Shown piece after piece: positions 4,110 to 42,736 of a stretch of DNA of 64,000 nucleotides (its first letter is position 1; every line of letters starts with the position of its first letter). Origin of the DNA: Narthecium ossifragum. Lineage: Eukaryota > Streptophyta > Magnoliopsida > Dioscoreales > Nartheciaceae. Both the position numbers and the translations under genes were made by a program. Below the pieces are notes generated by a model, which did no database searches, was not told the DNA's origin, and saw nothing but the letters and a program-made list of their open reading frames with translations. The stretch is from assembly GCA_963920575.1 (NCBI GenBank), contig OY986971.1, positions 12,824,492-12,888,491 of the forward strand. The letters are read 5' to 3'.

Positions 4110-4990
4110 TGAATGTGATTCACCAGTTAATAGTTACCAGTTACTTTCCATAGTGTCTTTGTTCATCAGTTACTATGCATCAATTACTTTCCACCAACAC
4201 TAGGTGTTTATTCACCAGTTACTTTCCACATTTGGTAGAATTTTATTGTCCTGTTATTCACCAGTTACTTTCCATAAACAGGTTGTTCATTAACCAGTTA
4301 CTTTCCACCAAAACTAGGTGTTTATTAACCAGTTACTTTTCATAAACAGGTTGTTCATTAACCAGTTACTTTCCACCAAAACTAAGTGTTTATTCACCAG
4401 TTACTTTCCATAAACATGTTGTTCATTAACCAGTTACTTTCCACCAAAATTAGGTGTTTATTAACCAGTTACATTCCATAAACAGGTTGTTCATTAACCA
4501 GTTACTTTCCACCAAAACTAGGTGTTTATTAACCAGTTACTTTCCATAAACAGGTTGTTCATTAACCAGTTACTTTCCACCAAAACTAGGTGTTTATTAA
4601 CCAGTTGGTTTCCATAAACAGGTTGTTCATTAACCAGTTACTTTCCACCAAAACTCCACTTACGTTTAACCAGTTACTTTCCATAAACAGGTTATTCATT
4701 AACCAGTTACTTTCCATCAAAACTCCACTTACGTTTAACCAGTTACTTTCCACATTTGGTAGAATTTTATTGTCCTGTTATTCACCAGATACTTTTCATA
4801 AACAGGTTGTTCATCAGTTTCCTGCATCAGTTACTTTCCACAATTGGGTGAATTAACCAGTTACTTTCCACCAACACAAGGTGTTCTTCACAAGATTGTG
4901 CTATTTATTCACCAGTTACTTTCCACCAACACTAAGTTTTTATTAACCAATTACTTTCCACCAAAAATAGAAATAGATTGTCAAAGTAAG
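4110..4990 (+). repeat. about 67-bp tandem repeats with AGTTACTTTCC
   Basis: Downstream of the transposase stop a minisatellite alternates two half units. One reads CCAGTTACTTTCCATAAACA and continues GGTTGTTCATTAA. The other reads CCAGTTACTTTCCACCAAAA and continues CTAGGTGTTTATTAA. The full period is about 67 bp, most regular at 4270-4720. All copies run in the transposase sense. Stretches reading as short ORFs here are products of the repeat, not genes. Confidence 0.9.
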
Positions 4991-8959: not shown

Positions 8960-9727
8960 ATCAAAAGTAACTGGAGAACAAACAGGACAATTGTGGAAAG
9001 TAACTTATGAACAAACACATTATGGTAAGAAACTAATTGATGGAAAGTAACTAACTAATTATGGAAAGTAACTGGTTACCAATTGTGGAAAGTAACTGGT
9101 GAAAAATGTGTTCTTATGGTGGAAAGTAACTGATACGTAGTAACTGATCTACAAACACATGATGGAAAGTAACTGGTTAAAAAACACCTAATGTTTGGTG
9201 GAAAGTAACTGGAGAACAAATAGGGCAATTGTGGAAAGTAACTTATGAACAAACACATTATGGTAAGAAACTAATTGATGGAAAGTAACTAACTAATTAT
9301 GGAAAGTAACTGGTTACCAATTGTGGAAAGTAACTGGTTATCAATTGTGGAAAGTAACTGGTGAAAAATGTGTTCTTATGGTGGAAAGTAACTGATACGT
9401 AGTAACTTATCTACAAACACATGATGGAAAGTAACTCGTAATTATGGAAAGTAACTGGTTAAAAAACACCTAATGTTTGGTGGAAAGTAACTGGAGAACA
9501 AATAGGACAATTGTGGAAAGTAACTTATGAACAAACACATTATGGTAAGAAACTAATTGATGGAAAGTAACTAACTAATTATGGAAAGTAACTGGTTATC
9601 AATTGTGGAAAGTAACTGGTGAAAAATGTGTTCTTATGGTGGAAAGTAACTGATACGTAGTAACTGATCTACAAACACATGATGGAAAGTAACTCGTAAT
9701 TATGGAAAGTAACTGGTTAAAAAACAC
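8960..9727 (-). repeat. higher-order repeat upstream of Ulp1 gene
   Basis: Subunits of about 20-25 bp, each with GGAAAGTAACT on +, are ordered into a higher-order unit beginning CTGGAGAACAAA. Copies start near 8972, 9211 and 9493, so the period is 239-282 bp. The same array continues at 13897 after the inserted TIR element. Confidence 0.85.
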
Positions 9728-10394
9728 CTACGGCCCGTTTGGTTCGCACAAGGAATGGTGGTGGGAATGGGAATGGGATTAGGAATGGGAATGGGATTAG
9801 GAATGGATTATTACCAAGGTGATTTTGTGATATCAGGATTGGGAATAGGAATGAAGCATTACCATGTTTGGTATACAAACAGAAGCCCGGGAATGGAATA
9901 GGAATGAAGTACACATGACTAAAATACCCTCCTTTTTTTCTTTTATTTGTAATTTTTACGATGAGAGAAAATTGTAGATACAAGTGAACTAAGCTAGACA
10001 AACAAAAACACCTTCTCTTTGTACATAAAATTCATTCAATGCATATTTCAACTCTTCTCTTTTCTACAATGGAAGTTGGAAATTAGCAAAAGCTTTGATT
10101 CTTGATAGAAATCCTTTGACAAGAACGCTACTATTTTGTAAGTACGTAAAGCAAAGACAACAATCATGAAAACAAACCAAAAGAAATGAAGATGGGAGTT
10201 TAATTAGTTCTTAAATCCCATGCATCAACTGTAGTTTATCATGACCTAGCTATATGATGTATGTGTATATCTATCTATTTCCTCTTGTTCTTGCTTCCCA
10301 ACAAGAGAGTCACGTAGAAAAGGATCCTGAAGAAGAAGCCCCAGGCCACTGTCACCCAGAAACAGTCCCACTTGAGCACCTTGGATTTCGTGGC

Positions 10395-17189: not shown

Positions 17190-18760
17190 TGTTGCGCCCC
17201 GACCCGCGAAAGGCCAACCGGGCTGGGGACGCAAACCGGAACCTAACCAACCGCGAAAAACATATGGCGAGGGTTCTCTCTAATCTATTGGTCTCTCTAA
17301 GCAATTCATTAAACACCATTAATTAACAATTCTAACATCAACAGAAACCTCAAACTCAAACATTACAAATCCAAAGTACAAAACTACAAAACCTCGAAAA
17401 GGGGAAAATCAGTTACAAACATTTATACACTCCCGTAGGAGGCTAACTATACATGGGTTCAGAAACAGAAAGATCACCACTCCTCATACTCCGTCAGGCG
17501 CCGCCGTACCGCCAACCAACTGCCCGGTGGGGGCCACCGAAGAGGAGCTAACGCCTCCACCTGCAAAACGCAGCCTAGGTAGGAGTGAGCAACTAAGCTT
17601 AGTAAGAAAACTATACTACGACTCATAGAAGGAAGAGCGAAACGCAACAGTGTCGCCCTCTAGCAAGGTCTGGGTGTACACATGGGTCCCATAACCCCAC
17701 CACGTGTCCCTGAGGTCCACAATCATGATCTTCCAGTCGAGCTGGTCACACGACGGGTCACGCTCAGTAAGCAGGAAACCAACACTTTGACTCACAAGCA
17801 GGAAATCAGCACTGCTGACAGGAAATGACACCGCTGAGTAGACATACCCTCTACTCAAGAGTTGTTATAACCGGACACCGGCTACACCTTAGAACCCGAC
17901 TTGAGGCCGACACGACCTCTAAAATCATCAAACAGCAGGTGTTCAAGTCATCTAGGCTTATCATCGAAATCGACTGAACACCACCATTCAAACCTTGGCC
18001 AAGCTACCCAGCCCCGCCCCTAAGGCTAAATCCGAGCTTCCAAGCTTCGGGACGGTGATACCACAGATCGCCTACCCTCTAATCTTATGAAGCTAATGCA
18101 CAACCAGATGCATGCTATGAACACACACAGGAAAGCAGATAAGCATGCAACACATGTGACGATAAAAAAAACAAGGTCTGGGCTCGGCATCCTGCCGGCT
18201 CGGGGTGGTTAACAGGTAAAACAGGGCAAGGGACTGCTGTAGTGGTAACCCCACTGACGCGCCCAAACCACTCGTCGTTAAAAGTGACTAGGGCGTCAAA
18301 GATTTACAATTTATACCGAATCCTAACTAACTACTACGTAGCTAGCGGGAGTCCGGGTTGATCCACAGGGAAATGAGATTTGACTGACATACTCGATAGA
18401 TAACTCCAAACAACTAGCTAAAATGATTTGGGTTTTGGATTAATGTCTATTAAAGCAATTAACTAAGTGAAGAGAAATATAACTAATATAGAGAGGTCTT
18501 GGGATCTCTATTTCATTGTAGGTCCTAATGTAGCCTCCTAAGGAATTAAGGTGTGTAATCCAATTGGGACGATCGAAATCAAGAAGTCGACAAGCGGGTG
18601 GTTAGCCTCACTTATCGCTCGACGGAAGTCGGGTTAGGATCATCCAACGGAAATAATCACATTCACAAAGTCGACGAATGAGTGATTAGCTTCTATTGTC
18701 GCTAACGAACCTTCGATTAAGATCGATTCGTCGCAAGAAAAAGATATTGCATGGAGTCGG

Positions 18761-18929
18761 GCATTGGATCGAGATGGTTCTAGCACCTCGAATCCAATGC
18801 AAGAGAAAGATAGAATGGATCCTTTGATTAGAGAGATAGGGATGGTTCTAGCATCCCTAACCTCTAATCTAGGGCTAGTAATCCTCCCAATGTCATTGGA
18901 TGTGTTTCTAGCACATCCAACTCATTGGG
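18761..18929 (-). repeat. three stem-loops with a common loop, 3' LTR of A
   Basis: Example: left arm GATTAGAGAGATAGGGAT, loop GGTTCTAGC, right arm ATCCCTAACCTCTAATC. The next: left arm CCCAATGTCATTGGATGTG, loop TTTCTAG, right arm CACATCCAACTCATTGGG. Confidence 0.85.
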
Positions 18930-19369
18930 GCAAAACAACAAACACCTATCATGCACAAGTCCTAACTCATACCAAAGAAAGGCATTCATCCATTCAACAT
19001 ATGAAATCCATGTACAAAAATAAGGAAATAATGCTCAAATCCATACAATAGATCAATCCCAAAGATTACACATAAAAAACCCTAGGAAAACTACAAAAGA
19101 ATCTTACAACTACATGGAAATCCCAAGATAGAGGAAGTTAGCTACTCATCTTGGTTAGATCCATGGATGGAGGTTGATGAAGCTCCCCTCCCATGGATTC
19201 CCTCCAAGAAGTCCTCCTCTCAATTGGGTAAGAAACCTAGAAGGGCTGGAGAGACTAAGAGAAGCCCCCTAAAATCCCCCCTAAGGGGTCTATTTATAGT
19301 AAACAAGCCTCCCCCACTCGGATTAGATCTGGGCCATTGATTTTGCTCGGCTGGCATCAAAGAATCGAT

Positions 19370-19680
19370 CCTCATAGGGTGAAGGATCGATCATTCGCTT
19401 CGTGTGATCGCTGGTCCCGTGAAGGATCGATCCTCCCATAGGAAAGGATCGATCTTTTCTTCTTGAATTCTGGCTGCGCTCCGATGAAGATCGATCCTTC
19501 CCAGGGTGAAGATCGATCCTTCAGAACTTGCGTTCTGTCACTGAGAAAATGCGCAAAAATGATCGATCCTCTCATGCCATAGGATCGATCCTTGTTGTCC
19601 TGATTGGCTCCTTCTTAAAGCACTTCAAAGGATCGATCCTTCATCAATACAGGATCGATCTTCTTCATAAAAACTGGCCC
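19370..19680. repeat. GATCGATC palindrome cluster in A 3' LTR
   Basis: About ten copies of RRGATCGATCYT-type palindromes in 300 bp, upstream of the TATA box. The same cluster is in the 5' LTR at 31798-32118. Short ORFs rich in DRSF are translations of this repeat. Confidence 0.9.
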
Positions 19681-19829
19681 GAATGACATCGTTTAAGCTC
19701 GGAACTTGATCCAATCCTCGTTGAGGGTACTTGTACCTGTAATAGGGTAAAATCCATCAGTAAGGCCTTGCTCGGAGACTAACAAGGCCAAGTTAAAAGG
19801 GTGATTTATGCACTTTTCACGTCTTATCA

Positions 19830-19840
19830 CACCCCCTAAC
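19830..19840 (-). other. polypurine tract of A at 3' LTR
   Basis: Sense GTTAGGGGGTG directly before the 3' LTR, preceded by CTCGAGGACTAGCAAAG. Confidence 0.85.
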
Positions 19841-20310
19841 TTGAACTTTGCTAGTCCTCGAGCAAAGCAAAAGAAAAATAACTAGAAGGGAAAGAGAAGA
19901 AATAAGAAACTCAAAAAGTGCAATCCCCCGTTCAACAATTAGTCACTTCTCATAAAGCTTTGGTTCTTATACGATCAAAATTCATTCATATGCACACATA
20001 GATTCAAATGCATAGCTCCATCCATCAACCCATAGCACAAGTAAAATGCAAGCGAATAATTCCATCAATAGCATCATTCAAACACTTCAAAGCACTTGAA
20101 CAAGATTAAAGCTCATCTAAGCGATCCGTGTAGTGAAAGTCGCTACTCAAGTATTCGGGGTCTCATAGTCATTCAAGTAGGGTTCCCATCAAAACTAGAC
20201 ATCCTTAGTGCTTTACACCGGTTGAACAAATGACAAGTTTTTATTTAAAGTAAAATCTTTGTTCTTCTTTCTTTTCTTTTCTCTCTTTTTTTTTTCTTTG
20301 ACTAAAACCA

Positions 20311-20660
20311 GTGGTCGTGCAATGCCATGATCCCTTAGGCTTTCTACTAGGCCCATGTAACAGGATTTAGGCCAGTGGCTCCTCGGTCAGATGACCTAAA
20401 GGCACTGGGTGTTGAGACACCCCTCGGGCTTAATTTCCCGAACCTAGCAGGCCACGAATCACAGCTGACCAACAAGCTTTTATTTGATACTAGTGTGACC
20501 GTGCAATGCCTTGATCCCTTAAGCTTTCTACTAGGCCCATTTAACGAGTGTTAGATCAATGACTCCCAAGCCAGATGCCTTTGGGGCATTAGGTGTTGAA
20601 GCACCCCTCTGGTCTAACTACTCGAGCCTAGAAGGCTACAAATCAAGACTAGTCACTTTT
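20311..20660 (-). repeat. 184-bp tandem module between the two PPTs of A
   Basis: Two diverged copies, with GTGCAATGCC at 20317 and 20501. Each ends in a small hairpin (GGGTGTTGAGACACCC in the first, a weaker form in the second). Non-coding. The rest of 19841-20950 is AT-rich without genes. Confidence 0.8.
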
Positions 20661-20950
20661 ATTAACCTGGCTCTCAGCCTCTAACTTGGCTTCGAACCCT
20701 ACTACAAGTCATCTCAATCGAGTGTAAATAGCCTTGGACTCCCAATCTATCAAGGTCCCCCAATCAAACACTACTTGCCCCCTCATACATGTGTAAGTGC
20801 ACAAGTGGATTGGATCACTTAAATGTCCTTAATGCATGGCAAGAAGAATTAAAGTAGAAGAATAACATTACTCATGAAATGATTCGCCAAATTTTACAAG
20901 GCATGGGAATCAAGATGAATTACGCAATAGTCATCCATGCTAGCATAAGA

Positions 20951-21229
20951 GTTGAAAATTTTTCACATATTTACCAATCAAATAAACGTGTGACTAACTG
21001 TAGATCGATCACATGTTATCTATAAACATGATGCAATCATAATCGTTGAAAATTTTTCACATATTTACCAATCAAATAAACGTGTGACTAACTGTAGATC
21101 GATCACAGGTTATCTATAAACATGATGCAATCATAATCGTTGAAAATTTTTCACATATTTACCAATCAAATAAACGTGTGACTAACTGTAGATCGATCAC
21201 AGGTTATCTATAAACATGATGCAATCATA
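20951..21229 (-). repeat. 94-bp triplication next to internal PPT of A
   Basis: Three almost identical 94-bp units start at 20951, 21045 and 21139 (GTTGAAAATTTTTCACATAT). Each holds GATCGATC. The near-identity means very recent expansion. Confidence 0.95.
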
Positions 21230-21240
21230 CCCCCTAACTT
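21229..21240 (-). other. second, internal PPT-like tract of A
   Basis: Sense AAGTTAGGGGGT, preceded by GCTTGAGGACAAAC, about 1.4 kb upstream of the 3' LTR. The GAGGAC plus AAGTT(A/G)GGGGG layout copies the terminal PPT and recurs in X, Y and Z. Confidence 0.75.
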
Positions 21241-21848
21241 AAGCGGGTTTGTCCTCAAGCACGGAAGAAGGGTAAAGTGTAGAGATAACCTTGTGACGAA
21301 ATGGGCGAAAATGTGACCTTGACGAAAGATATGACAGGAATTAGAGTCAAGGTTAGTCGTGAAAAACCGTATTATTGTGATGTCAAAATGTAGTATTTTG
21401 TGTTGTTATCCATAGCTCGTATGCCCTGCAAAAACATAGAGGAAATACCCACCATAGCATTATGGAAATAAAAAAATAGATATGACAAATTTTGAGAAAA
21501 ATTGGGCAGCATTCCCTCTATTTATTCAATACGCCCAAGGGCTGTACAAAGATGCCATTTGCATCCAACATGTTACATTCATTCAAAATGAAAATACAGA
21601 AATGCAACCACCTCAATCATCATTTACAAGCATTCATCCACATCCATATACATACATCCACATACAGACAGACACACCCGGGGCACACCCCCATACCAAA
21701 AATTATGCATATATATAATCACTAACATCGAAGCCAACCATATACAAAGATAGAGCAGTGGAATACAAAAAGTTACCCACCCTCCCAACACAAAAAGAGA
21801 TCCACTCTAACCATCCAGAAAATACAGAATACCCCTAAATACAGTCTA

Positions 21849-23378
21849 TCATCCCTGAGGTCTCTGCTCTGGAAAGTGAAGAGGTCGGTAAGGCACAATA
21901 GCAGTGACCGGCGGAGGTGGTGGGTGGATGGCATCGAGACGGGCGAGGATAGTCGACGCGACCAAGTGAAGTGAGGTGGTGTCCTGGCGTAGGGCGGCGA
22001 TGTCCTGACGTAGGGCGGCGTGGTCCTGACGTAGGGCGGCGTGGCGCGCGTCTACCTCGTCCAGCCGCTGCAGTACTGCGGACTGGAACGCCCGGTGCTC
22101 CCTATAGATCTCACCCATGGTAGGGTGCTCTACAGGTCCGAACTCAGGTGGGGGGCACCGAGGACGCGGCTGCCGGAAAGGTGCCCCGGCCTTCCTCATA
22201 TGGCCGAGGACCTTGCCCCAGGTGGGGCCACCGAAGCGCGCAAAGCGGAGGGCCTCGTCGGAAACGGTCGGCTCGCCCTTGGGGACTAAGTCCTGGCTTG
22301 ATAGAAATGCTGAAATAAGGCACGGGTGCGGCGCGGCCTTCTTGGCAAAGCTTGTTGTCTTGTCTCTGACTGCCCCGCCGTAAAAATGGAACATGTCCTC
22401 TAAAATCATCTGGGGTATGTTGACCGCCCACCCCTTGGCCAACAACCACAGAATGCCAAGCCAATGACCAGTTCGATACTGGTCATGGCCATTCTGGAAG
22501 ACATTGCGACGCAGTATATCGTCGAACAGCCAGAACTGAGGCGAAAGCTCTGCCCGTGTAAATTTGCCCTCGCCTATGTGATCCGGGTTAAGGACAAGAT
22601 GGGCCTCGCTGGGATGACGGTATAAGTCCTCAACCTGGACCCTATAAAGATCAGGGCAGCGCATCGGAATAGCCAAAATCTCGGATACGGTCTTGGCCGT
22701 CACGGTAACGCTGACCCCGTCAATAATGGACGTGAAACCAAGGCAGGGTTAATAAGCATCAACAGCGTCGTCGCGCTCATCCCCGTAGGTGATGGCTGTC
22801 ATGTTCTGGTAGAACATGCAGACAAGCCTAGGGTACACCGTGGTCTCCGGTGTACAAAGAGGTAGAAGACCACGGTTCTCCAACATCTCAATGGAGTCCT
22901 GAGCATGCTCTACAGTACGAAAGTGCTCCACATTGAAGGTAAACTCGAGGTTTACCTCCCGCTGCCACTCTGGATGGAGACCTCGGATGAGCGTGGGCGC
23001 AGTGGATGGCCGTGTCTGCTTCTTGATCTTCTTGGACTGGCGAGGGTTGGTTGGAGCTGCCTTCTTGCGTTTGGAGGTTGCCGGAGCCGTGGGTGGTGCA
23101 GCCAGGGAACGTGTGGAGGATGTGGAAGCCGCCCTCGGAGTCCTTGCTGGCCGGGACGATGAGGATGGAGGTATGGACGCTCGAATGGGTGAGGCTGGTG
23201 GGGAAGACGGTGAAGCCGGAGGTGTGGGAGCTTGCTGTGGAGATGATGGAAGCGCCGGAGGTGTTGAAGATTGACGTGGAGGTGCCGAGGGAGGTCATGC
23301 CGGTGGTGTGGAGGACGAAGCGGCGGCCTTGCCCTTCCCGGTGGCCTTCTTGGTCGTCGCGGTCTGCTTGCGAACCAT
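21849..23378 (-). pseudogene. Athila ORF2 (env position), two in-frame stops
   Basis: A reading frame of 510 codons on - in the place where Athila elements keep their second, env-like ORF. It starts MVRKQTATTKKATGKG at 23378 and is open except for TGA at 23295-23297 and TAA at 22749-22751. It has a Pro/Ser/Ala-rich N-terminus, a basic patch (KRKK and SKKIKKQ), a conserved middle (WQREVNLEFTFNVEHFRTVE, PRLVCMFYQNMTAITYG) and the Athila domain around EILAIPMRCPDLYRVQVED. The C-terminus has four ALRQD-type repeats, probably a coiled coil, and ends near LDAIHPPPPPVTAIVPYR. I see no signal peptide or clear membrane segment, so an envelope role is doubtful. X and Z keep C-terminal remnants. Confidence 0.75.
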
Positions 23379-23700
23379 TGGAGATGAGTGGAGAGGAATA
23401 GGTCGCCTTGGGGTGAAGTGGAACGGCGAAGGTGGCCGGCGAAGAGGAGCTTGGACGACGCGACGGCGCCGGTGGGAGGTGAGGGAGGAATGTGGATGGC
23501 GCCGGGGTCTATTGAGGGTAGAGGAGTGAAGGGGAGAGGTCGTGCGCCGGCGGCTTGCGTCGGAGGCGAGGAAAGGAGGAAATGAGGAAATGTGGATGGC
23601 GCCGGGGGTGAATGATGGAGGAGGAGTGAGGGGGAAAGGTCGTGGAGGCACTGGGAGGTGAGGGACGGCGGCTCGATGGACGGCGGCGGCGATATGCGTC
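23379..23700 (-). repeat. GC-rich leader of ORF2 with 100-bp duplication
   Basis: Upstream of ORF2 the sense strand is C-rich. TGTGGATGGCGCCGGGG occurs at 23491 and again at 23591 on +, inside two diverged 100-bp copies. This may be the leader for a spliced or separately started ORF2 transcript. Confidence 0.65.
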
Positions 23701-23756
23701 GGAGGCGGAGACGAAGAAGGGCGGGGCGGCGTCGTCTCCTGAGGGAAGAAAGGGGG

Positions 23757-24180
23757 AGGATCGATCTTAGGGCTTGTGAGCCCTAAGTCGATCCGCTGGA
23801 GTTTATATTTTTTTACAAAACCCCGCAAAGGATCGATCTTCCTAAAGAGGAAGATCGATCTTTTTGCCACGTGTCAGCATCATAACGGTTCAACTTAAGT
23901 CGTGCTGACGTGTCCAAGTGAGTAAGAGCGATCTTTTATTAGAGAAGGATCGATCTTCTCAAAACCAATCCCCTGTCACGAAAAAATTCGCAAAAATGAT
24001 CGATCATCAGGGATTGAAGGATCGATCTTCTCAAAACCAATCCCCTGTCACGAATTAATTCGCAAAAATGATCGATCATGGGGGTATGGAAGGATCGATC
24101 CTCTCACCCCCAGGTTCCATCGTAACTCCATCGGGCATAAAGGATCGATCCTCTCCGCTTGGAGGATCGTTCTTTTATGC
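23757..24180. repeat. internal GATCGATC cluster of A
   Basis: About ten copies of GATCGATC-type palindromes between pol and ORF2. The phrase TTCGCAAAAATGATCGATCA is close to one in the LTR cluster (TGCGCAAAAATGATCGATCC), so the two clusters share origin. 24181-24460 is AT-rich with nothing recognised. Confidence 0.85.
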
Positions 24181-24462
24181 ACCAAACTGCAAAACTGGGC
24201 TGAAAACCTGGGAATTTGCCCCAAACACCCCAAACAAGAATACTAGGCTCCTTAGGCATTAAAATACCACAATAACAGCCCTCCAAACCAAACAAAACAT
24301 CAATCATCCCACAAATTCAACATACCATCTTGACATCACAATTATTCCAACAAAGATCAAATCAAAAAAACACACCAAAATCAAACATGCAAAGAATGGG
24401 AAAAACAATCAATCATGCAAAGAAGAAATAACAAGTAAAAACAGAAAAATACGAAGAAAGGA

Positions 24463-24513
24463 TGGGTTGCCTCCCACCAAGCGCTAAATTTACCGTCTAT
24501 AGCTAGACGCAAT
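24463..24513 (-). other. conserved post-pol motif of A
   Basis: Sense: a hairpin CGTCTA-GCTA-TAGACG, then GTAAATTTA, then GCGCTTGGTGGGAGGCAACC followed by CA. It starts right after the pol stop. The same arrangement is in X, Y and Z. TGGG and CCCA can pair around AGGCAA. Confidence 0.8.
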
Positions 24514-24518
24514 AAAGC

Positions 24519-27500
24519 TCAAGTATCATACGGTTCCGCCAACATAACGGTTGGCTCAAGGGTGATGTCAAGAGGGAAGCTATGAATATAAGGTTCCAAA
24601 CGTTGACCATTAACAGTGAATGTAGCACCCGAAAAAGGATTTTGCAGCTCAACATGCCCATGGGTGAAAACCTTAGTGACATTAAATGGACCATCCCACC
24701 TAGTCTTAAGTTTTCCCGGGAAAAGCCGAAGACGTGAATTGTAGAGCCAAACCTTATCCCCAACATCAAAGGTTTTCCGAACTATGAGTTTATCATGAAA
24801 AACTTTAGTCCGGGCCTTGTAAATTTTGGTATTCTCGTAGGCCTCATTTCGAATTTCTTCGAGCTCATGGAGTTGGAGTTTCCTATTGCTTGAAATATCA
24901 TTAGGGTCCCAATTAAGAGCTTGAATTGCCCAAAACGCTTTATGTTGAATCTCTACCGGGAGATGGCAAGGTTTTCCAAAGACCAATCGGAATGGCGACA
25001 TCCCGATTGGCGTCTTGTAGGCCGTTCGATAGGCCCACAAGGCATCATTGAGCTTAAAAGCCCAATCTCTCCGGTCGATTCTCACAACTTTTTCTAAGAT
25101 CCGCTTGATCTCGCGATTGGACACCTCAACTTGGCCACTAGTTTGAGGGTGGTAGGGTGTGGCTACCTTATGGGTAATTCCATATTTTTCACATAGAGAT
25201 TTAAAATGCCGGTTAGTGAAGTGAGGGCCACCATCGCTTATGATGGTCCTCGGGAAACCGAAACGAGTGAAGATATTGGCATGCAAGAATTTCAACACAA
25301 CTTTATGATCATTTGTTTTCGTGGCAATTGCCTCCACCCATTTGGAAACATAATCCACCCCTACCAAAATGTATAAGTAGCCATTTGATTGAGGGAATGG
25401 ACCCATAAAATCAATACCCCACACATCGAAAACTTCACACACAAGAATGGGAGTTTGGGGCATTTCATTTCGTCTAGAGATTGTGCCAACTTGTTGACAC
25501 CGGAGGCAAGCTTTGGCAAAATTGTGAGAATCACGGAATATGGTAGGCCAATAGAAACCGCATTCAAAGATTTTAGCGGCGGTCTTCCTACCGGAGAAAT
25601 GTCCACCACAAGGATGAGAGTGACAATGAGTGAGGATGGACGTAACTTCCGATTCGGGAACACACCGTCTCAACAATTGATCCGGGCATCGTTTGAGCAA
25701 GTATGGATCGTGCCAAAAATAGTTCTTGATATGTGAGAAGAATTTATTACGATCATTTTTGGACCAAAAGAGTGGAATTTGCCCGGTGGTGAGATAATTG
25801 ACAATATGAGCGAACCACGGCTTGGGAAATTGATCGATGGCCAAAAGATGCTCGTCCGAGAACAACTCATTGATCGGAATGGAGTCTAAGATGTGCTCGG
25901 ACGATAGCCTAGAGAGATGATCCGCTACCACATTAGAGGAGCCTTTTTTATCCTTAAATTCAAGATTGAACTCTTGGAGAAGCAAGATCCATCGAAGTAA
26001 GCGTGGCTTGGCATCCTTCTTGGAGAACAAATACCGCAAAGCGGCATGGTCGGTGAAGATAATGATTTTGGAACCAAGGAGGTAGGATCGAAATTTCTCC
26101 AAAGAGAAGACTACCGCTAGCTATTCTTTCTCGGTAGTCGTGTAATTGACTTGAGCATCATTCAAGGTTTTGCTAGCGTAGCATATAACATGAGGGAGTT
26201 TATCAATCCGTTGGCCCAAAACAGCGCCCACGGCATGGTCCGAGGCATCGCACATGATTTCAAACGGGAGTGAATAATCGGGTGCGTGCACAATGGGTGC
26301 GGAAGACAAGGCCTCACGAAGAGTGATATAGGCATGCATGCAAGGGTCATCAAAGATGAAAGGAACGTCTTTAGCAAGTAAGGCACAAAGAGGACGAGAG
26401 ATTTTGCTAAAATCCTTGATGAAGCGACGATAAAAACCCGCATGCCCAAGAAAAGATCGGATTTGGCGAACCGATGATGGAGGAGGAAGTTTAGAGATGA
26501 GCTCAAGTTTGGCCTTATCAACTTCTATCCCCCTACTTGAAACAACATGGCCCAACACAATCCCCTCATTTACCATAAAATGACTCTTCTCCCAACTCAA
26601 GACTAGGTTTGTTTCCTCACACCTAGCTAAGACTTTGGTAAGATTCTCAAGACAAGAGTCAAATGATTGGCCAAAGACTGAAAAGTCATCCATGAAGATC
26701 TCTAGAAAGTGTTCGATCATGTCTCCGAAGATGGCTAACATGCAACGTTGAAACGTTGCCGGTGCATTACAAAGACCGAAGGGCATACGCCGATAGGCGA
26801 ATGTACCAAAAGGACAAGTAAATGTCATTTTCTCTTGGTCCTTAGGATCAATTGCCACTTGGTTATATCCGGAGTAGCCATCAAGGAAACAATAGAAACT
26901 TTGCCCGGCAAGTCTCTCCAAAATTTGGTCAATGAAAGGAAGTGGAAAATGGTCCTTCCTAGTGAATGAGTTCAACTTCCGGTAGTCAATACATACTCGC
27001 CATCCCGTAGTTTGGCGAGTAGCAATGCTTTCTCCCCTCTCATTCTTAATCACGGTAATGCCCGATTTCTTGGGCACTACTTGGGTTGGACTCACCCATT
27101 TGGAGTCCGAGATGGGTAAAATGACCCCCGCCTCAAGGAGTTTAAAGACCTCCTTCAACACAACTTCCCTCATGTTTGGGTTCAATCGACGTTGGAACTC
27201 AATGACACTTTTAGACTCATCTTCTAAATGTATGCGGTGCATGCATATAGATAGATCTATCCCCTTGAGGTCGGCAATGGACCACCCAATGGCCCTCTTG
27301 TGCTTGGTGAGCACCTTAATGAGTTTTCCCTCTTGTGTAAGAGTCAAGGATGAAGATATGATTACCGGAAGGGAGCAATTTGGCCCAAGATACTCATATT
27401 TCAAATTGGATGGCAAGGGTTTCAACTCTAAGGTTGGTGGCTTAATCAAAGATGGGGGTGCCGGTGTGGAGGATATAGGTGGCAATGGCTCAAAAGAAGT

Positions 27501-30431
27501 TTTTCGAAAGGCCATGGCACAAGCATGTTCAAATTCATCGAGTAATTCCGAAGTGGGTAAATCCGCATCTTGCAACACATTGAAAACCATCGAAAAATCA
27601 TCAAAAGTCAACACTTCATCACGTAAACCCGGAAAATCCTCATCAACACTCGGCAAATCATCAAAATTCAACACATCATCACCACTCGATAAAGAATTAT
27701 CACAAGCATCCACAAAGGATTCACACGAATCATCTATATCAAAGTTCGCAATCATTACATCATTTGCACATTCATCAACAATATCATCATCCACCAAAGC
27801 ATCAACCATAAAACATTCATTCCCATGCATAGATTGTTTAGTAGCATCAAAAATATTTAATTTCAATTTCATATTCCCGAAGGTAACGGTCATAATGCCA
27901 CTTCTACAATTGATGCATGCATTGGCCGTAGCCAAGAAAGGTCGGCCAAGTATGATAGGAATGGATTTCTTATGTCTAACCCCCGGTTCCATGTCAAGAA
28001 TAACGAAATCGACCGGGAAGACACATCTATCGACCTTGACTAAAATGTCTTCAAGAACACCCCGTGGTGTCTTGATAGATCTATCGACCAATTGCAAGGT
28101 CATTGAGGTCGGCTTGAGCTCTCCTAAGCCAAACTTACAAAATAAGGAATATGACATAAGATTCACACTAGCTCCTAAATCAAGAAGAGCCCCCTCAATC
28201 AATTGATCTCCTATTATGCAAGAAATGGTAGGAGTGCCGGGGTCTCTCAATTTCGGAGGTAGATCAAGTTGAAGAATAGAGCTAACTTGCTCCGTTAGGA
28301 AGAGCTTTTTGGAGACATGAGACTTGGATTGCCTCTTATGGGTACACAAGTCCTTCAAAAATTTGGCATAAGAAGGAACTTGCTTAATGGCATCCAACAA
28401 GGGAAGGTTGATGTGGACCTTCTTAAAAAGTTCTAGCATTTCCTCATATTTGCCACTCTTCCAAGGTTGAGATGTGGCTTGAGGATCAACTAGTGCTTGA
28501 GGGTATGGAGCCCTAGGAATGTATGATTTAGTTGGTACTGGATCGAGTGAAATAGGCTCATTTTTCTTGGAAGATGGCAATGAACTTGAGGGATCATGAG
28601 GGGCATGATGAGGTGATGCTTGAGAGTCATTCATTGAAGTTGGTAAATGAGGTTCATGCCCTTGCTCTAATGTGGTGTCTTTGGACATCTCCACATTAGG
28701 AAAAATCTTTCCACTTCGGAGGGTAGTGACCACTTGCACTTCCTCATGAGTGGAATCAACGAAATGTTGGCCTTTAGGGTTTGCTATGGGTTGACTAGGA
28801 AGTCTACCCTCCTCCCTTCTTGCCATAGTATTGGCCAATTGGCCTATTTGTACTTCCAATTTTGCAATGGATTGGGAATGAGAATGCAAAAGTTGGGTAC
28901 TTGACTCAAAAGAGTCCAAAGCCTTGAGAAGCCTTTCCTCAATACAAGGATCACGTTTAGGAGCTTGAGGGGCTTGATGGGCTTGATAGGGGGCTTGGTA
29001 TGAAGAAGGCCCAGGTGGCCTTTGATTCCAATTTGGAGGGTGAGAGGATTGTGGATAACCCGCCACTTGAGAGGGATAAGCATTAGGGGCTTGAGGTGGA
29101 TATGCATGAGGAGCTTGAGGTGGCCGGTAGGTGGATTGATTTTGTGGAGGTGGATTAGAATGATATGGCGCTTGGTACCTAGGAGGGTAGCTCGGGGCTT
29201 GATTGCCCGAAATTGGAGGCCTAGGATTGTATGCATTTGGAGGTTGTTGGCCGGGATTTCTCCACGAGAAATTTGGATGATCCCTAAGACCGGGATTGTA
29301 CGTATTTGAGTATGGGTCATAGGTAGGCTTGGATTGATTGAATACTGCGTTAATATGCTCTTGCACGAGCTCCGGATATTCACATGCCAAATGACACTCG
29401 GTAACTAGATGACCGGGAGTCGAACATAAGAAGCAAAGTTCTCCCAATGTTGGAGAATTAGGTGGGTAGCTCGATGAAGAAGGAGGAGTAGGAATTTGAT
29501 TCAAAGAATGAGCAAGTACTTGATCAAATTTTCTACTTAGAGTATCAATTTGTTGTGCAACACGAGTGGCTTCGGATAACTCTAATACTCCTCTAGAATT
29601 GGATTGTCCCTTAGGGCTTGAAGTATCCCTAATATTCCTCGAAGTGAAGGCATGATTTTGGGAATTAATGGCAAGCTTTCCAAATAAGATCCATGAGTCC
29701 TCGTATGGGTTGGTCATGAATACCCCACCGCACGCGGTGTCTACGTCTTGTTGATGACGTAGTCTAAGACCATTGTAAAAATAATCAACAAGAGACCATT
29801 TAGGGATTTGGTGGTGTGGGCATTTTCTAAGAAACTCTTTAAATCTATCCCAAGTATCATGAAATGGTTCGTCATCTTCTTGACGAAAGGTTGCTATTTG
29901 GGTTCTCATTTCATGAGTCTTAGCGATAAAAAAGAACTTTTCTAGAAAAGCACTTTGTAATTGGTCCCATGTAGTGATCGTTTGGGGCTCAAGGGATCCT
30001 AACCAATGCTTGGCTTTGCCCTTCAAGGTAAATGGGAACAACTTTAATCTCATAGCATCCTCGGTAAAGTTTGGGATTTTGACCGTGGAACTCTTTTCGA
30101 GGAAGTCTTCTAAGTGATAGTAAGGGTCCTCATTACTCAAGCCGTGGAAGTTTGGAAGGAATTGAAGGAATTGAGGCTTAAACTCGTAATGTGCGGCTTG
30201 AACAACGGGTTGTTGTATGCCCGATGGAGGTGCAAAAGTAGTAGGGACATAATAATCCCTCATACTCCTACGGTCCGGGACGAGATTGGCATTAGGATTG
30301 GGGTCCGGGTTGGGAACATCCATGACTTGAGGAAAAAGGAGATCCTTATGCAAGGGTATGCTTGAAGATGTCCTAGAATCTAGGAATGCTTGCAATGTGA
30401 TATCTAGATCTGAATCATCTTCATCAGTCAT
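24519..30431 (-). pseudogene. Athila gag-pol, one in-frame stop
   Basis: One frame from ATG 30431 to the stop at 24519, broken only by TAG at 26121-26123. Domains: gag (about residues 80-260, with MRLKLFPFTLKGKAKHWLG), zinc knuckle CFLCSTPGHLVTEC (333-346), Pro-rich linker, aspartic protease with DLGASVN (Asp near 751), RT with CIDYRKLNSF and FMDDFSVFG (MDD near 1247-1249), and RNase H from CDASDHAVGAVLG (about 1395). The stop falls in RNase H after NYTTTEKE. After it come the rest of RNase H ([15 protein letters not shown]) and integrase: zinc finger around [10 protein letters not shown] and CLRCQQVG, catalytic Asp in WGIDFMGP, Asp in IISDGGPHF and Glu in GQVEVSNRE, spaced D-35-E. It should produce the particle and enzymes for A and perhaps for X, Y and Z. 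Readthrough of TAG cannot be excluded. The antisense frame at 27025-28206 is not a gene. Confidence 0.95.
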
Positions 30432-30668
30432 TCATACATATAGGAATTTGGACCATACAAGGTAAGAAATACATTACAGTGGGCTGGTCCAAGAACCTTG
30501 TATCTTCGCCCGTAGATGAGTCGCTTCGCCCCCCGAAAGCTTCACCTACAACCACAAAAAGATATACAATATAAGCAACGTTCTATTTTTGGTATTTTGT
30601 AATAAAATAAAATAAAGTAATCTAATTGAAGGAAGGAATTTATCAAGTAAGAAATTCAAATCAACAAA

Positions 30669-30686
30669 TCCCCGGCAACGGCGCCA
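30669..30686 (-). other. primer binding site of A (tRNA-Asp)
   Basis: Sense TGGCGCCGTTGCCGGGGA, complementary to the 3' end of plant tRNA-Asp, the usual Athila primer, six bases inside the 5' LTR. Confidence 0.9.
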
Positions 30687-31198
30687 AAATCTTGACGCGC
30701 CCAAACCACTCGTCGTTAAAAGTGACTAGGGCGTCAAAGATTTACAATTTATACCGAATCCTAACTAACTACTACGTAGCTAGCGGGAGTCCGGGTCGAT
30801 CCACAGGGAAATGAGATTTGACTGACATACTCGATAGATAACTCCAAACAACTAGCTAAAATGATTTGGGTTTTGGATTAATGTCTATTAAAGCAATTAA
30901 CTAAGTGAAGAGAAATATAACTAATATAGAGAGGTCTTGGGATCTCTATTTCATTGTAGGTCCTAATGTAGCCTCCTAAGGAATTAAGGTGTGTAATCCA
31001 ATTGGGACGATCGAAATCAAGAAGTCGACAAGCGGGTGGTTAGCCTCACTTATCGCTCGACGGAAGTCGGGTTTGGATCATCCACCGGAAATAATCACAT
31101 TCACAAAGTCGACGAATGAGTGATTAGCTTCTATCGTCGCTAACGAACCTTCGATTAAGATCGATTCGTCGCAAGAAAAAGATATTGCATGGAGTCGG

Positions 31199-31367
31199 GC
31201 ATTGGATCGAGATGGTTCTAGCACCTCGAATCCAATGCAAGAGAAAGATAGAATGGATCCTTTGATTAGAGAGATAGGGATGGTTCTAGCATCCCTAACT
31301 TCTAATCTAGGGCTAGTAATCCTTCCAATGTCATTGGATGTGTTTCTAGCACATCCAACTCATTGGG
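31199..31367 (-). repeat. three stem-loops with a common loop, 5' LTR of A
   Basis: Stem-loops at 31199-31238, 31264-31307 and 31324-31367 correspond to 18761-18800, 18826-18869 and 18886-18929 in the 3' LTR. On + the loops read GGTTCTAGC, GGTTCTAGC and TTTCTAG(C), so the sense loop is GCTAGAACC or GCTAGAAA. In the 3' LTR copy the arms pair over about 14, 15 and 16 positions with a small internal loop each. The arms are unrelated between the three. Confidence 0.85.
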
Positions 31368-31728
31368 GCAAAACAACAAACACCTATCATGCACAAGTCC
31401 TAACACATACCAAAGAAAGGCATTCATCCATTTAACATATGAAATCCATGTACAAAAATAAGGAAATAATGCTCAAATCCATACAATAGATCAATCCCAA
31501 AGATTACACATCAAAAACCCTAGGAAAACTACAAAAGAATCCTACAACTACATGAAAATCCCAAGATAGAGGAAGTTAGCTACTCATCTTGGTTAGATCC
31601 ATGGATGGAGGTTGATGAAGCTCCCCTCCCATGGATTCCCTCCAAGAAGTCCTCCTCTCAATTGGGTAAGAAACCTAGAAGGGCTGGAGAGACTAAGAGA
31701 AGCCCCCTAAAATCCCCCCTAAGGGGTC

Positions 31729-31738
31729 TATTTATAGT
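31729..31738 (-). promoter_or_regulatory. TATA box of element A 5' LTR
   Basis: Sense ACTATAAATA. The matching site in the 3' LTR is 19291-19300. The GATCGATC cluster lies upstream (U3) and the stem-loop array downstream (transcribed leader). Confidence 0.7.
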
Positions 31739-33572
31739 AAACAAGCCTCCCCCACTCGGATTAGATCTGGGCCATTGATTTTGCTCAGCTGGCATCAAAG
31801 GATCGATCCTCATAGGGTGAAGGATCGATCATTCGCTTCGTGTGATCGCTGGTCCCGTGAAGGATCGATCCTCCCATAGGAAAGGATCGATCTTTTCTTC
31901 TTGAATTCTGGCTGCGCCCCGATGAAGATCGATCCTTCCCAGGGTGAAGATCGATCCTTCAGAACTTGCGTTCTGTCACTGAGAAAATGCGCAAAAATGA
32001 TCGATCCTCTCATGCCATAGGATCGATCCTTGTTGTCCTGATTGGCTCCTTCTTAAAGCACTTCAAAGGATCGATCCTTCATCAATACAGGATCGATCTT
32101 CTTCATAAAAACTGGCCCGAATGACATCGTTTAAGCTCGGAACTTGATCCAATCCTCGTTGAGGGTACTTGTACCTGTAATAGGGTAAAATCCATCAGTA
32201 AGGCCTTGCTCGGAGACTAATAAGGCCAAGTTAAAAGGGTGATTTATGCACTTTTCACGTCTTATCACCCACCAACTACAGCCAGTCCATAAAAAAGACA
32301 GCATGTTACGGGAAACAACCCCGGCAACCAAGTCTAACAGTACAACGTGTTAAACTACACATCCCGGAAGTCGTCACTCTCCTGGTGCACCACTACCCCT
32401 CATTATGGGGCTATCATGCTCAAGAATATGTACAAGTTATAAAGCGGTAAAGAAAACCGCATAAGTGAAGCCCCGCAAGCAAAACCCATTGAAAACGCCT
32501 CTCAGCCACCAAAGAGATCGATCTCTCTACCAGAGAAGATCGAGCTTCTTAGTGCTTGGAAAGCCTCGTCCCAGTCAACCGAAAGGGATCGATCTTCTCC
32601 ACCAGAAGGATCGATCTTTTTCGTGACTCGAACCCCACCCATGCCAACCAAGAAAAGATCGATCTTCTCCAACAAAAGATCGATCCCGCACGGGCTGAGC
32701 ATGACGTCCCACAAATGATCGATCTTTTAAGGAAAGATCGATCTGAATGGGTTCACCAGCGGACCGCCAGTGAGAAATACCGTCGGAAAACTCCATCAAA
32801 CCCCACAAAAACCTTGGGATCTGGTAGTACGAAGGATCACCAGTCCAAAACCGATGATTTCATTGAAAATAAACTTGTACATAATCAGATCTAAGCAAAA
32901 CAAACCACATCCAAGCTCAAACTCACAAAATCCGAAAAAACATGTAGGTAGGATCCCTACCTAGACTAAAGCAGCTTCAATCCCAGCTGCTAAGCCTCGG
33001 ATCGTCCTCAATCTCCTCCAAATCCAGCCGGATCTCAACTCAAGAACGCGGATTTCAAAAGAGAAACAAAGAAGGGGGTCTCGTTCGTTTTATAGACGGA
33101 CAAACAGCCTTATGAGAGATCGATCTCTTCTCAAAAAGAGATCGATCTTTCATGACAAACCGACTTAATTTTCTTGCGCTAAAAGATTGATCTCCTTAGC
33201 AAGGGAAGATCGATCCCCTTCGCCCAGAAAGCTAGACTTGGGCTAAAACACAAGCCCAAGTTAGAATCTTTCGATCCCGGGTCCACCTAACCGTTCTAAT
33301 CAAATATTAACACAAACACGGTCAGTGTGTGCACACGCGAGTGTGAAACAAACCGATAAGGCGCAATTTATAAAATTGCCCTTGCGGCCCAAGAAACAAT
33401 GCGATCTATCAGATCACGCGCTCGACGCGAAACAAGCAAACGAGCCACGGGCCCGACCCAGCTAGTCGACCCAGGAGTAGAGGGATAGGTCCTCACATCC
33501 TAATACCCTTAAAGGAAATCTCGTCCTGAGATTCGATAAAGGTAGGGCTTGGAAACAGAAAAAGAAGCTACA

Positions 33573-36120: not shown

Positions 36121-36544
36121 TGACACGCCTTGAAAAGTATCGTAAGGTTAACAAGTACGCTAAAATTAGAAATTTATAATCTGAATCACTAACTCACTAC
36201 TTTAGATAACAATGAATCCGAGTCGGTCCACATGGAAAAGAAGTATTAAGTCTAATTACCTCGTATAGTTCTAAATCAAAAGATTCATAAAGGAAATGAT
36301 TTTTTGGGTTTAAATTACTCTTAACTAAGATTAAACTAATTCAAAATAATAATAAGATAAACGGCCAAGAGATTTCTAATCCGTAATAAAGAACTAACTA
36401 GGTCTTCCTAACATAAGAGCAAATCAATTGAGCATTAACGGTTTTAACTAGTCGAAAGGTGAATGGCTAGAACCCCTACCGCTCAACTAAGATCCGTACA
36501 ATCTTTAGTCGACAATGATATCATCAAAGAATGGATATTGGTAC

Positions 36545-36790
36545 ATAATCAAGATGGTTCTAGCACATTGAGATCGATAAATAGAATGTATCAAGGATTA
36601 GAAGTTACCCTAGTGGTTCTGGCACTAGCGTAGTGGTACTGGCACTTACGAAATCCCTAATCTTAAATTAAGATGAATAACAGATTAAGAAGTGGTTATG
36701 ATGGTTCTGGCATTATGTGTAATGGTTCTAGCATTACAAAACCCTTGATCTCGAGAAGGAAATCCTCACATCCATGGTTCTAGCATAGAT
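36545..36790 (-). repeat. six stem-loops with GGTTCTRGC loops in X LTR
   Basis: Loops on + start at 36556, 36615, 36635, 36703, 36724 and 36776 (GGTTCTAGC, GGTTCTGGC or GGTACTGGC). Arms pair around each, for example TGTAAT and ATTACA at 36718-36738, CTAGT and ACTAG at 36610-36628, TCAA and TTGA at the first. Arms differ between copies. Confidence 0.8.
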
Positions 36791-37249
36791 GTTTTGATGA
36801 GAATCTCTAATCTCAAGCCCTAACATGCTTAAGACCTAAATCTAGGGCATATAAGAACAAATCATTCATCCACACTATTAAAATCACACCAATAGATATA
36901 AAGAGAATAAGAATCATCCATTCAAACCATTAGAATATGTTTACATGCTCAAATCCATAGGAAACCCTAGAAATATTCCTTATTACATCATAGAAATCCC
37001 TAGCCTAGGGTTTAGTTACTCATCTTAGGAAGGAGAGCCGTTGATGAAGGTTACTGCCACACCCCACCCATGGATCTTCTACCAAAGATCTCACCAAATT
37101 TATGAAAAAGAAACAAAGAAAAACCCTAAGAGATGAAGGAAATTCGTCTATGGAAGGCTGCCAAAAATCCCCCAAAAAGGTCTATTTATAGGCCTAAGAT
37201 AAACCCTAACTCGGATCAGATCTCAGCCATTAATATTTCCCACATCGCC

Positions 37250-37451: not shown

Positions 37452-38905
37452 TGATGAGTCACTAAATATTCATACTTAAACCCCTTAATTTATACTTAAA
37501 CCCCTTAATTTACCTTTGTTAGGCTTAGAGTATTTGTATTTGATAGTTTGTTAGTTGATTTCAGGTTTAATCATGCTTTGAAAAGAAATGCAAGAAATTC
37601 GGTTAATATGCTGAAATACACTGCTCTGTCGACTGTTAGCACAATATTCACCAGAAATTATCCTTATGTCTAAATATTCTGAAATTTGAATGACAGCTAG
37701 TAGACATCAAGACCTACAAGTTTCATGTTGAACACTTTCAGAGATTCCAGATGGATTGATAGCAGTTTGGGAAAAGATGAAGATATTTAGCTGCTGGAAG
37801 ACTGGTCCGTCAATGCGCGGGAGGATATTCGCCAAATATTTTAGTTAAGTCCAAATATTGCAAACTCTTCGGGAGAGGATAGAAGACTTCCAAATCTACA
37901 TCTTTTGTGTTGGACTCATTCTCAAATTTCGAACCAGTTGAGCCCAATCGCGATTGGAAGAAGCTGTCAGGGTTGAACCAGGAATTCCGAGTTGTACTTG
38001 AGGTCTAACTTAACCCTAAACCCTAATTCCGGGAATTAACATATTAAAAGGGTTTTGTTAGCCAAAAACCAGAGGCCCTCATAGAGAGAAAGAGAGGAAT
38101 TCATATTGGAGAAGAAGACGGAGATGCGGTGTGGATCCCTAACCTTCTTCATCAAATACATGGATCTCATCCAAAAGATGAGTGGCTAAACTCTATACTT
38201 AGGGATCTCATGAAGCTTTAGTGTAGCTTCCTTGTATTTTCTAGTTTGATTCTTGTATCTTTTCAAAGACATGATCTTATGAATATGGTTTTATTTTATA
38301 AAGAGTTGAGGGAACAGAGTTCCTCAACGTATATTCAGACCTACTTGATTGCTGAGCTTGATGGTAGAGATTCGTAGGATGGTTTTTATGTTGCTTTTGT
38401 GTATGCCTTTGAGATACTCTATGCTAGATGAAGATAGGTTATACTCAGATTAAGTTCGAAGACAATCTATGCTAAGTTTGGATAGGTTATGCCTTAGGGA
38501 AGCAATAGCATTATTTTAGGGATTCATGTAAGCTTAAGAAGCTATGAATCCATAATGTCGAGATAAGAGACAAGAGGATAATTAGAGAGTACAGGAAGTG
38601 AAACTAAAGTGGATTGAGTAATCCCTAGGTTTTCTCTCATTGATCTATTTTAATTTCGTTAATCGCGTTTTTAATTAGTTTTAATTAATCAATTTCTAAA
38701 AACCCTAAATCAATCCTTCTTCGCTTTAGGATTAGAGTGTTGAGAGTTAATTCTGATTTCTTCGTTTGTTAAACAAGTTTTCCCTGAGGATCGACCCCGT
38801 ATTTCACCATTATTCTATCTTCTTAATTTAGTGCTGAAAGAAAGGTTTATAAATTTCTAAATTGCGTTTTACATCTGTTTTAACGACGACGTTTGTGAGC
38901 GATCA
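37452..38905 (+). repeat. 5' LTR of Y
   Basis: Starts TGATGAGTCACTAAATATTC, ends GTGAGCGATCA. It holds a 20-bp tandem duplication (ACTTAAACCCCTTAATTTAT) near its start that the 3' LTR lacks. Its TATA box reads TATTAAAA (38042-38049), while the 3' LTR has TATAAAAA at 45258-45265. Confidence 0.9.
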
Positions 38906-38910
38906 ATTTT

Positions 38911-38928
38911 TGGCGCCGTTGCCGGGGA
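38911..38928 (+). other. primer binding site of Y (tRNA-Asp)
   Basis: TGGCGCCGTTGCCGGGGA, identical to the PBS of A, five bases after the 5' LTR. Confidence 0.9.
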
Positions 38929-39104
38929 TGATTTTGATTTTTCAAAGAAGTTTCTGATTTTTCTCTTTGCTCTTTTTCTAGGCATAGTTAGGTTTTTATT
39001 TTCAGTTATTTTTCGTTTACTTTTAGGAATTTTTCTGACAATTCTCGGGATTTTCGTAGCATTAAAGCAACAGTTTTTTTGGAGAAGAAGCTTTCTGCAA
39101 CTCG

Positions 39105-39190
39105 GATTACCGACCGATCGGCCTACCAGGTGAGCGATCGGAAGGCCTACCGATCGATCGGCCATCTTCCTGATCGATCGGACGCGCGTC
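39105..39190. repeat. CGATCGATCGG palindromes in Y leader
   Basis: Words such as CCGACCGATCGG, GAGCGATCGG, CGATCGATCGG and TGATCGATCGG lie between PBS and gag start. This is a third palindrome type, in the leader and not in the LTR. Confidence 0.75.
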
Positions 39191-39311
39191 ACTCAGGTAT
39201 GTTTTCTTCACCTAAACTTGCACTTTTTGCTGTGGCATTCCGTGGTTTTCTCCTCTCCTTCGAAACTTCTGTTTTCTTTTTCTTTTCTTTGTGGTGTGTG
39301 GTTGACAGTAT

Positions 39312-42674: not shown

Positions 42675-42684
42675 TGGCACCTTT

Positions 42685-42736
42685 TCGGGAAGTCGAGCGA
42701 AGACTTAAAATTGCGCGCTTTTTTTGAGGCAACCCA
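42685..42736 (+). other. conserved post-coding motif of Y
   Basis: AAGTC-GAGCGAA-GACTT hairpin, then TTAAA, then GCGCTTTTTTTGAGGCAACC and CA. It is a degraded copy of the motif found intact in A, X and Z. Confidence 0.7.

Follow-up and report, generated by a model that had tools for sequence, protein, structure and literature searches.

Both LTRs of a retrotransposon of Narthecium ossifragum, termed element A, contain a row of three hairpins in which nearly the same heptaloop is presented by unrelated stems, and related hairpins occur in many LTRs of this genome. The structure, loop constancy together with covarying stems, is well supported. As to function, a cis-acting array in the leader RNA, most likely bound by the CCHC knuckle of Gag for packaging or dimerisation, is tentatively preferred among the explanations considered.

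Element A and the hairpin arrays of the window

In the window, the whole stretch of 64,000 nt that was analysed, element A comprises the following features.

18255-32267, minus strand: element A, LTR retrotransposon of 14.0 kb, defined by LTR alignment, TG...CA ends and target site duplication
18250-18254 and 32268-32272: target site duplication of 5 bp, CCCAC on the plus strand, read from the sequence
30693-32267, minus strand: 5' LTR, from LTR alignment
18255-19829, minus strand: 3' LTR, from LTR alignment, holding the hairpin array at issue
31729-31737 (copy 19291-19299), minus strand: TATA-like box of the 5' LTR
31576-31588 (copy 19138-19150), minus strand: conserved upstream motif GATGAGTAGCTAA, which reads as a short ORF, M-S-S-stop
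30670-30686, minus strand: primer binding site (PBS) TGGCGCCGTTGCCGGGG, adjoining the 5' LTR
26121-30431, minus strand: gag-pol ORF of 1436 aa with matches to Gag, RT and RNase H
29394-29435, minus strand: single CCHC zinc knuckle of Gag, CFLCSTPGHLVTEC

The LTRs are 1,575 nt long and 98.9% identical in a 1,587-nt alignment containing both. An integrase ORF comes after gag-pol. LTRs with a target site duplication, and RT and RNase H ahead of integrase, are features of Ty3/gypsy elements, and on these sequence features the label Athila-type Ty3/gypsy (plant Metaviridae) fits element A. The protease match in gag-pol (E 9e-5) is slightly below the Pfam cut-off. When an env-like ORF was looked for after integrase, the ORF at 21849-22703 gave a sub-threshold match to PF20167 only. 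The PBS word TGGCGCCGTTGCCGGGG, which we take to be the Athila-type primer binding site, is present in 2,372 exact genome copies against none for controls. It cannot single out one lineage, because element B, described below, has the same word. Four IMG/VR contigs matching the PBS word were considered as relatives and taken as chance matches, because they are GC-rich (64-68%) and have no TATA-like box, upstream motif or loop word; they were excluded from later counts. A search yielded 65 relatives, 44 of which have the CCHC spacing of element A somewhere within their first 900 residues. The array region has many close copies; of 926 candidates from a first look, 40 were scored, and identity over 221 nt is 98-100% in every one of these.

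Several other repeats and matches were observed. Between 19360 and 19680, and in the matching part of the other LTR, GATCGATCCTT-like palindromes are repeated upstream of the TATA-like box; they are possibly promoter elements or methylation targets. Two Rfam matches to snoR71 (RF00097) above the gathering score, 29806-29912 on the plus strand and 39876-39982 on the minus strand, each cover part of a gag ORF in antisense, in element A and in element B, respectively. Two readings are conceivable: this family overlaps retrotransposon sequence, or the antisense strand of gag contains a snoRNA-like stretch. Tandem repeats with about 68-nt spacing and identity of up to 94% occupy 4181-4753 of the window, and another internally repeated stretch with different spacings is located at 8964-9730.

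Three consecutive stem-loops with internal loops and a common loop had been reported in the earlier note, and they are present in each LTR of element A.

18761-18800, minus strand: hairpin H1, the 3'-most in sense orientation, loop CTAGAAC at 18777-18783
18821-18873, minus strand: hairpin H2, loop CTAGAAC at 18845-18851
18886-18929, minus strand: hairpin H3, the 5'-most in sense orientation, loop CTAGAAA at 18905-18911
31199-31238, 31259-31311 and 31324-31367, minus strand: copies of H1 to H3 in the 5' LTR (offset +12438), where the hairpin model matches too

In the copy at 18.8 kb, the sense folds of H1, H2 and H3 have energies of -22.8, -25.2 and -25.8 kcal/mol, respectively. Their apical stems measure 7, 8 and 10 bp and the basal ones 9, about 8 and 7 bp, in the same order. 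A bulge or small internal loop separates the two stems in each of them. On the sense strand, all three heptaloops are closed by a G-C pair followed by a U-A pair. The claim that the arms differ completely therefore needs correcting: the stems are indeed unrelated, but the UG...CA pairs flanking the loop are nearly constant. The LTR of element A contains three heptaloop hairpins with contiguous stems of at least 8 bp, compared with a mean of 0.33 in dinucleotide shuffles. Three such hairpins, with no likeness of the loops required, were reached in 9 of 1000 shuffles. An Rfam search of the window yielded no match above the gathering score at the array, the two snoR71 matches lying elsewhere.

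Scanning the window with a 25-nt hairpin model gave 14 array matches, six of which are the two copies of H1 to H3. The others belong to arrays of two further elements, listed here with element B, which served for comparison.

36548-36792, minus strand: related hairpin array of another element, four model matches on the minus strand
52666-52910, plus strand: related hairpin array of a third element (the 52-kb element), four model matches on the plus strand
52434-52446, plus strand: upstream motif of the 52-kb element
37488-46123, plus strand: element B, with LTRs at 37488-38907 and 44704-46123

A 15th model match (36458-36482, plus strand) has the orientation opposite to its array and was left out of it. 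Element B shares the PBS word with element A, and at 38177-38189 on the plus strand it has the upstream motif in a variant form, GATGAGTGGCTAA; it also encodes a CCHC motif. Among the hairpins listed downstream of its upstream motif, no heptaloop beginning with YYAG was found. Since element B has a CCHC motif and lacks the array, the array appears confined to some lineages, and a knuckle does not entail an array.

Loop constancy and stem covariation

Genome-wide counts were obtained from one genome (379 Mb, 150 contigs), with the reversed pattern as control. The loop word GGTTCTAGC is present in 10,915 copies compared with 3,343 for the reversed word. The excess is far larger for pairs of loop words: 721 versus 3 at spacings of 5-30 nt, and 2,790 versus 9 at 31-60 nt. 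A looser word, TGCYAGNNCCA, occurs 16,965 times against 8,140 for its control and is by itself not diagnostic, being merely twofold above it. The upstream motif GATGAGTARCTAA, which reads as a tiny ORF, M-S-S/N-stop, has 4,356 genome copies versus 15 for the reversed pattern.

The motif-selected sample was made up of the 32 occurrences of the upstream motif that come first on contig C1; it is not random, and two of its members (L096 and L097) overlap. A hairpin was counted if its stem reached at least 5 bp and its heptaloop was of the form C-N-A-G with G-C as the closing pair. At least one such hairpin is present in 28 of the 32 LTRs and at least two in 21; the highest number per leader is five, in L070. 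In four leaders (L080, L086, L097, L103) none was found by this criterion; L103 has a like hairpin with the loop TTAGAAC. A census of the same leaders for stems of at least 7 bp yielded 39 distinct heptaloop hairpins, 26 of them with a loop starting with YYAG, compared with none of 54 distinct hairpins with loops of 4-6 or 8-11 nt. Loops of three nucleotides (11 hairpins) are too short to begin with YYAG. In the 250 nt upstream of the motif, two heptaloop hairpins were detected in the 32 leaders, neither with YYAG. In L074, L100 and L103 another hairpin, GACGGATAG-like with TTATTCGTT, recurs about 511-515 nt past the upstream motif.

According to the earlier note, a fixed loop on changing but complementary arms is unlike simple duplication. 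The pairing of arms bears this out. From 69 sources, 200 word occurrences were reduced to 77 different pairs of flanks, which fall into 27 arm clusters. Pairing of an arm with its own partner amounts to 6.6 of 10 positions, compared with 4.7 for partners from other clusters, and the own-partner pairing sum over positions 3-12 was matched by none of 5000 permutations.

Compensatory changes in the arms of family members had been set beforehand as the test of the structure, and they were found. For this comparison, the ungapped alignment took in all 32 arm types, which had been picked on nothing but five loop words, and included several plainly non-folding ones. Paired cells amount to 76.0% of 288 compared with 54.6% in shuffles, cells with two-sided changes to 85 versus 34.6, and the covariation value to 0.609 versus 0.204; each was reached in none of 500 shuffles. 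If the partner was slid by 1-3 columns, covariation was at most 0.236. One measure fails to discriminate: two-sided change of some kind is seen at 8 of 9 pairs, a figure that 134 of 500 shuffles attained as well. All six standard pair types are seen at each of pairs 4, 6 and 7 from the loop. The loop-adjacent pairs are near-invariant, G-C in 32 of 32 arm types (fixed by the search word) and U-A in 26 of 32. Because these two pairs hardly vary, the recognised unit is probably UG-CYAGNNC-CA. Past pair 8, pairing drops in this alignment without gaps; at pair 9, it is seen in 8 of 32 arm types.

Loop variants were compared in 74 distinct hairpins, namely those of 124 candidates that had Watson-Crick pairing at 6 or more of 8 positions; only loops with YYAG were searched for. 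The loops include CTAGAAC (45 hairpins), CTAGTCC (8), CTAGGAC (4), CCAGAAC (4), CTAGAAA (3) and TTAGAAC (3). The general form of the heptaloop is CYAG-NNC, and in the sense strand CUAGAAC is carried by many unrelated stems. Two resemblances of the loop were considered and dropped. CUAGAAA equals the anticodon loop of some tRNA-Ser(AGA), but anticodon mimicry was discarded, as CUAGUCC, CUAGGAC and CCAGAAC keep no anticodon; ARAGORN found no tRNA in the window. A reading of GGTTCTAGC as T-loop or B-box was dropped by inspection, since T stands where the consensus has a purine and the stem is out of register.

Position in the LTR and possible functions

The earlier note had placed the array downstream of the TATA box and hence in the transcript leader. 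Positions were surveyed in 68 loci fetched by the loop word or by the array of element A. In 61 of them, a TATA-like box precedes the middle loop word by 396-674 nt (seven have no such box), which makes the leader position likely. The motif ATGAGTARYTA is found 100-650 nt before the middle loop word in 60 loci and not in the other eight. The motif lies 149-177 nt past the TATA-like box in 58 cases and 215 nt past it in the 52-kb element. An exact loop word first appears 180-423 nt after the motif (62 cases), and the PBS comes 533-538 nt past the last loop word in the 13 cases whose locus contains a PBS. Thus, the order TATA-like box, motif, array, PBS recurs. Judging from the TATA-like box alone, the array is likely to be transcribed as RNA leader. 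As expected of a psi-type signal, it would then be a conserved RNA structure in the 5' leader, with leader transcription taken from the TATA-like box only.

A partner that reads the loop is suggested by the data, because such a partner would leave a fixed loop on free stems. The array may be a cis-acting RNA element in the 5' leader, perhaps also in the R region, of plant Ty3-like elements. Every hairpin would present one heptaloop, C-Y-A-G-N-N-C, closed by G-C and usually then U-A; the loop would be read, and the stem would need only to pair. The reader would most likely be the element's own Gag, whose single CCHC knuckle could grip the exposed guanosine of C-Y-A-G. Rows of up to about five hairpins might nucleate Gag on full-length RNA, and the Gag-bound RNA, possibly dimeric, would thereby be marked for packaging and reverse transcription. 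The sequences show the constant loop, the covarying stems, the placement relative to TATA-like box and PBS, the abundance of the hairpins and the existence of a knuckle; we infer RNA running through the array, Gag as its reader and packaging as the outcome. Gag binding is held most likely because of the likeness to the MoMuLV knuckle with its UCUG sites and to the GACG-hairpin pair, both discussed below.

Variation of the loops between leaders is partly in line with a Gag reader. In L075, L099 and L102, all CYAG loops counted are CTAGTCC or CTAGTCA, on differing arms, as would be expected if one reader sets the loop. This suggests that loops within one array change together. Exceptions are a CTAAACC hairpin in L099, a six-base loop CGAAGT in L075, and L098, a relative of these three leaders, in which CTAGTCC is mixed with CTAGAAC. 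Because of these exceptions, the idea of loop dialects is drawn from three leaders of one family. A bolder and rather doubtful extension would be a modular packaging code, in which tandem hairpins sharing a heptaloop are read by the Gag knuckle and family dialects (CUAGAAC, CUAGUCC, CUAGGAC and CCAGAAC) shift with Gag. If true, it would mean a packaging signal made of loops alone and a way to stop families from packaging one another's RNA. Against Gag as reader, knuckle and array are not strictly coupled, as element B indicates, and four of the 32 leaders have no hairpin by the criterion.

Dimer linkage by loop-loop kissing is considered unlikely. Here, the self-complementary CUAG would pair with the like loop of a second RNA or of some other hairpin in its own RNA, and weak contacts would be multiplied by the array. 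CUAG is palindromic, U is found at loop position 2 in 69 of the 74 selected hairpins (C or T being required), and in MuLV, dimer stability is increased by loop-loop contacts of the GACG tetraloops in SL-C and SL-D (PMC5874298). But CCAG, which is not self-complementary, is kept in one family (in two hairpins of L070 and in a single one of both L079 and L092), and kissing alone leaves the kept positions 6 (A in 64 of 74) and 7 (C in 67 of 74), outside CUAG, unexplained.

A low probability is also assigned to control of leader translation, in which the short uORF and the structured stretch would together bring about ribosome shunting or re-initiation in the manner of plant pararetroviruses, and the hairpins would be the roadblock. 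Shunting after a short uORF is known in Caulimoviridae (PMC5902531). In favour of such a device, ATGAGTARCTAA is strongly conserved upstream of the array, and 23 AUGs follow the TATA-like box in the LTR leader of element A, so that plain scanning to gag looks unlikely. By inspection, an in-frame ATG further upstream lengthens the tiny motif ORF of element A. A roadblock, however, requires stability and not a constant loop; in ten predicted leader folds no shared stem base was found soon after the uORF stop, and the first exact loop word follows the motif only at the 180-423 nt given above.

Small, too, is the likelihood that a plant RNA-binding protein reads the loop as a host site for RNA export, stability or silencing. 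The structural facts suit a host protein as they suit Gag, and nothing here distinguishes the reader. The joint shift of loops within one family, with its exceptions, fits an element-encoded reader somewhat better, which is a weak argument.

Readings at the DNA level depend on the strand under selection. This was asked in four ways, and under strand-neutral rules only the count of G-U against A-C pairs was significant. Taking the commonest sequence per arm type, G-U versus A-C in the sense strand was 21:4 (p 0.0009) in 28 of the 32 arm types; 22 rows gave 17:2, and eight rows 6:1 (p 0.125). A ratio of 19:4 (p 0.003) obtained under a GU-favouring rule was set aside. The test was not significant in distinct hairpins (25:14, p 0.11), nor at 11:6 (p 0.33), and the mean number of enclosing pairs did not differ significantly between strands (14.6 versus 14.2, p 0.23; p 0.21 by cluster). 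Fold z-scores were derived from 60 shuffles each. In the region 230-430 nt past the motif, the sense z is negative in 11 of 11 families and lower than the antisense z in 9 of 11; the antisense fold of L075 is far below its shuffles (z -6.1). For the families of L039, L044 and L048, whose counted hairpins are mostly beyond this region, the 430-630 windows gave sense z-scores of -2.3, -2.4 and -4.4 and antisense z-scores of -2.1, -1.4 and -2.6, respectively. The excess of G-U over A-C therefore favours sense RNA, which is likely but not settled as the selected strand.

By template switching within a hairpin, one arm can serve as template for the other. Such switching during reverse transcription might keep arms complementary without selection on RNA, as might a DNA cruciform. 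The non-significant strand tests and the antisense fold of L075 speak for this reading, which is nevertheless very improbable: neither process accounts for one loop on unrelated stems, and the G-U count and the lower sense z in 9 of 11 families argue against both. Chance or plain repeat duplication is refuted by the permutation, covariation and pair counts, even if some adjacent hairpins, such as two CTTGGGTG hairpins in L078, are probably duplicates.

Comparison with known leader signals

The preferred reading, a leader array bound by Gag, concerns a field in which, to our knowledge, the choice of RNA for packaging by plant LTR retrotransposons is largely open. A compact, repeated and covarying motif in many LTRs of one genome offers a concrete site for tests of Gag binding, dimerisation, export and translation, and a sequence-and-structure profile of the hairpin could be used for scanning other plant genomes. 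The earlier note knew of no account of the array. None in plant elements was found in the literature searched, most subscription journals being outside the search, and one may exist elsewhere. For the loop word, the titles among the matches listed concern other subjects; for the upstream motif, the matches concern only Klebsiella phage depolymerases and transposon vectors in human cells. In PMC3601003, on LTR structure, the term Athila is absent.

Four known systems can be compared with the array. BARE is a Ty1/copia-like element. It is a plant LTR retrotransposon with packaging and dimerisation signals called conserved, and the term 'hairpin' is absent from the searched text; outside BARE, fairly little is known of the packaged RNA (PMC3735527). 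The leaders of CaMV and RTBV resemble the present one in that a short uORF of a plant reverse-transcribing element is followed by a structured leader bearing the packaging signal. There, one large stem-loop is topped by the signal, which is purine-rich in RTBV, whereas the array is a row of small hairpins (PMC5902531).

In MoMuLV, UCUG in the leader is bound by the single knuckle of NC, a cleft of which accommodates the G (PMC7599994); the 5' UTR of MLV is enriched in unpaired UCUG (PMC2951377). UCUG and the CYAG of the array are both repeated short pyrimidine-pyrimidine-N-G sequences with an exposed G, and in both cases Gag has a single CCHC knuckle. They differ in that UCUG is paired in the monomer and exposed upon dimerisation (PMC7599994, PMC2951377), whereas CYAG sits in predicted hairpin loops. 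The GACG-hairpin pair, SL-C and SL-D, was described in MLV-related leaders by Konings et al. 1992, as cited in PMC5874298. Like the array, these are adjacent leader hairpins with one highly conserved apical loop, and they are linked to dimerisation; they have a tetraloop, in two copies, in vertebrate viruses (PMC5874298). The present array has the heptaloop CYAG-NNC in up to five counted copies, inside the LTR before the PBS, in plant elements. By analogy, it is of a known kind, the like-loop hairpins in retroelement leaders known from gammaretroviruses, while its loop, copy number, place inside the LTR and host group were new to us.
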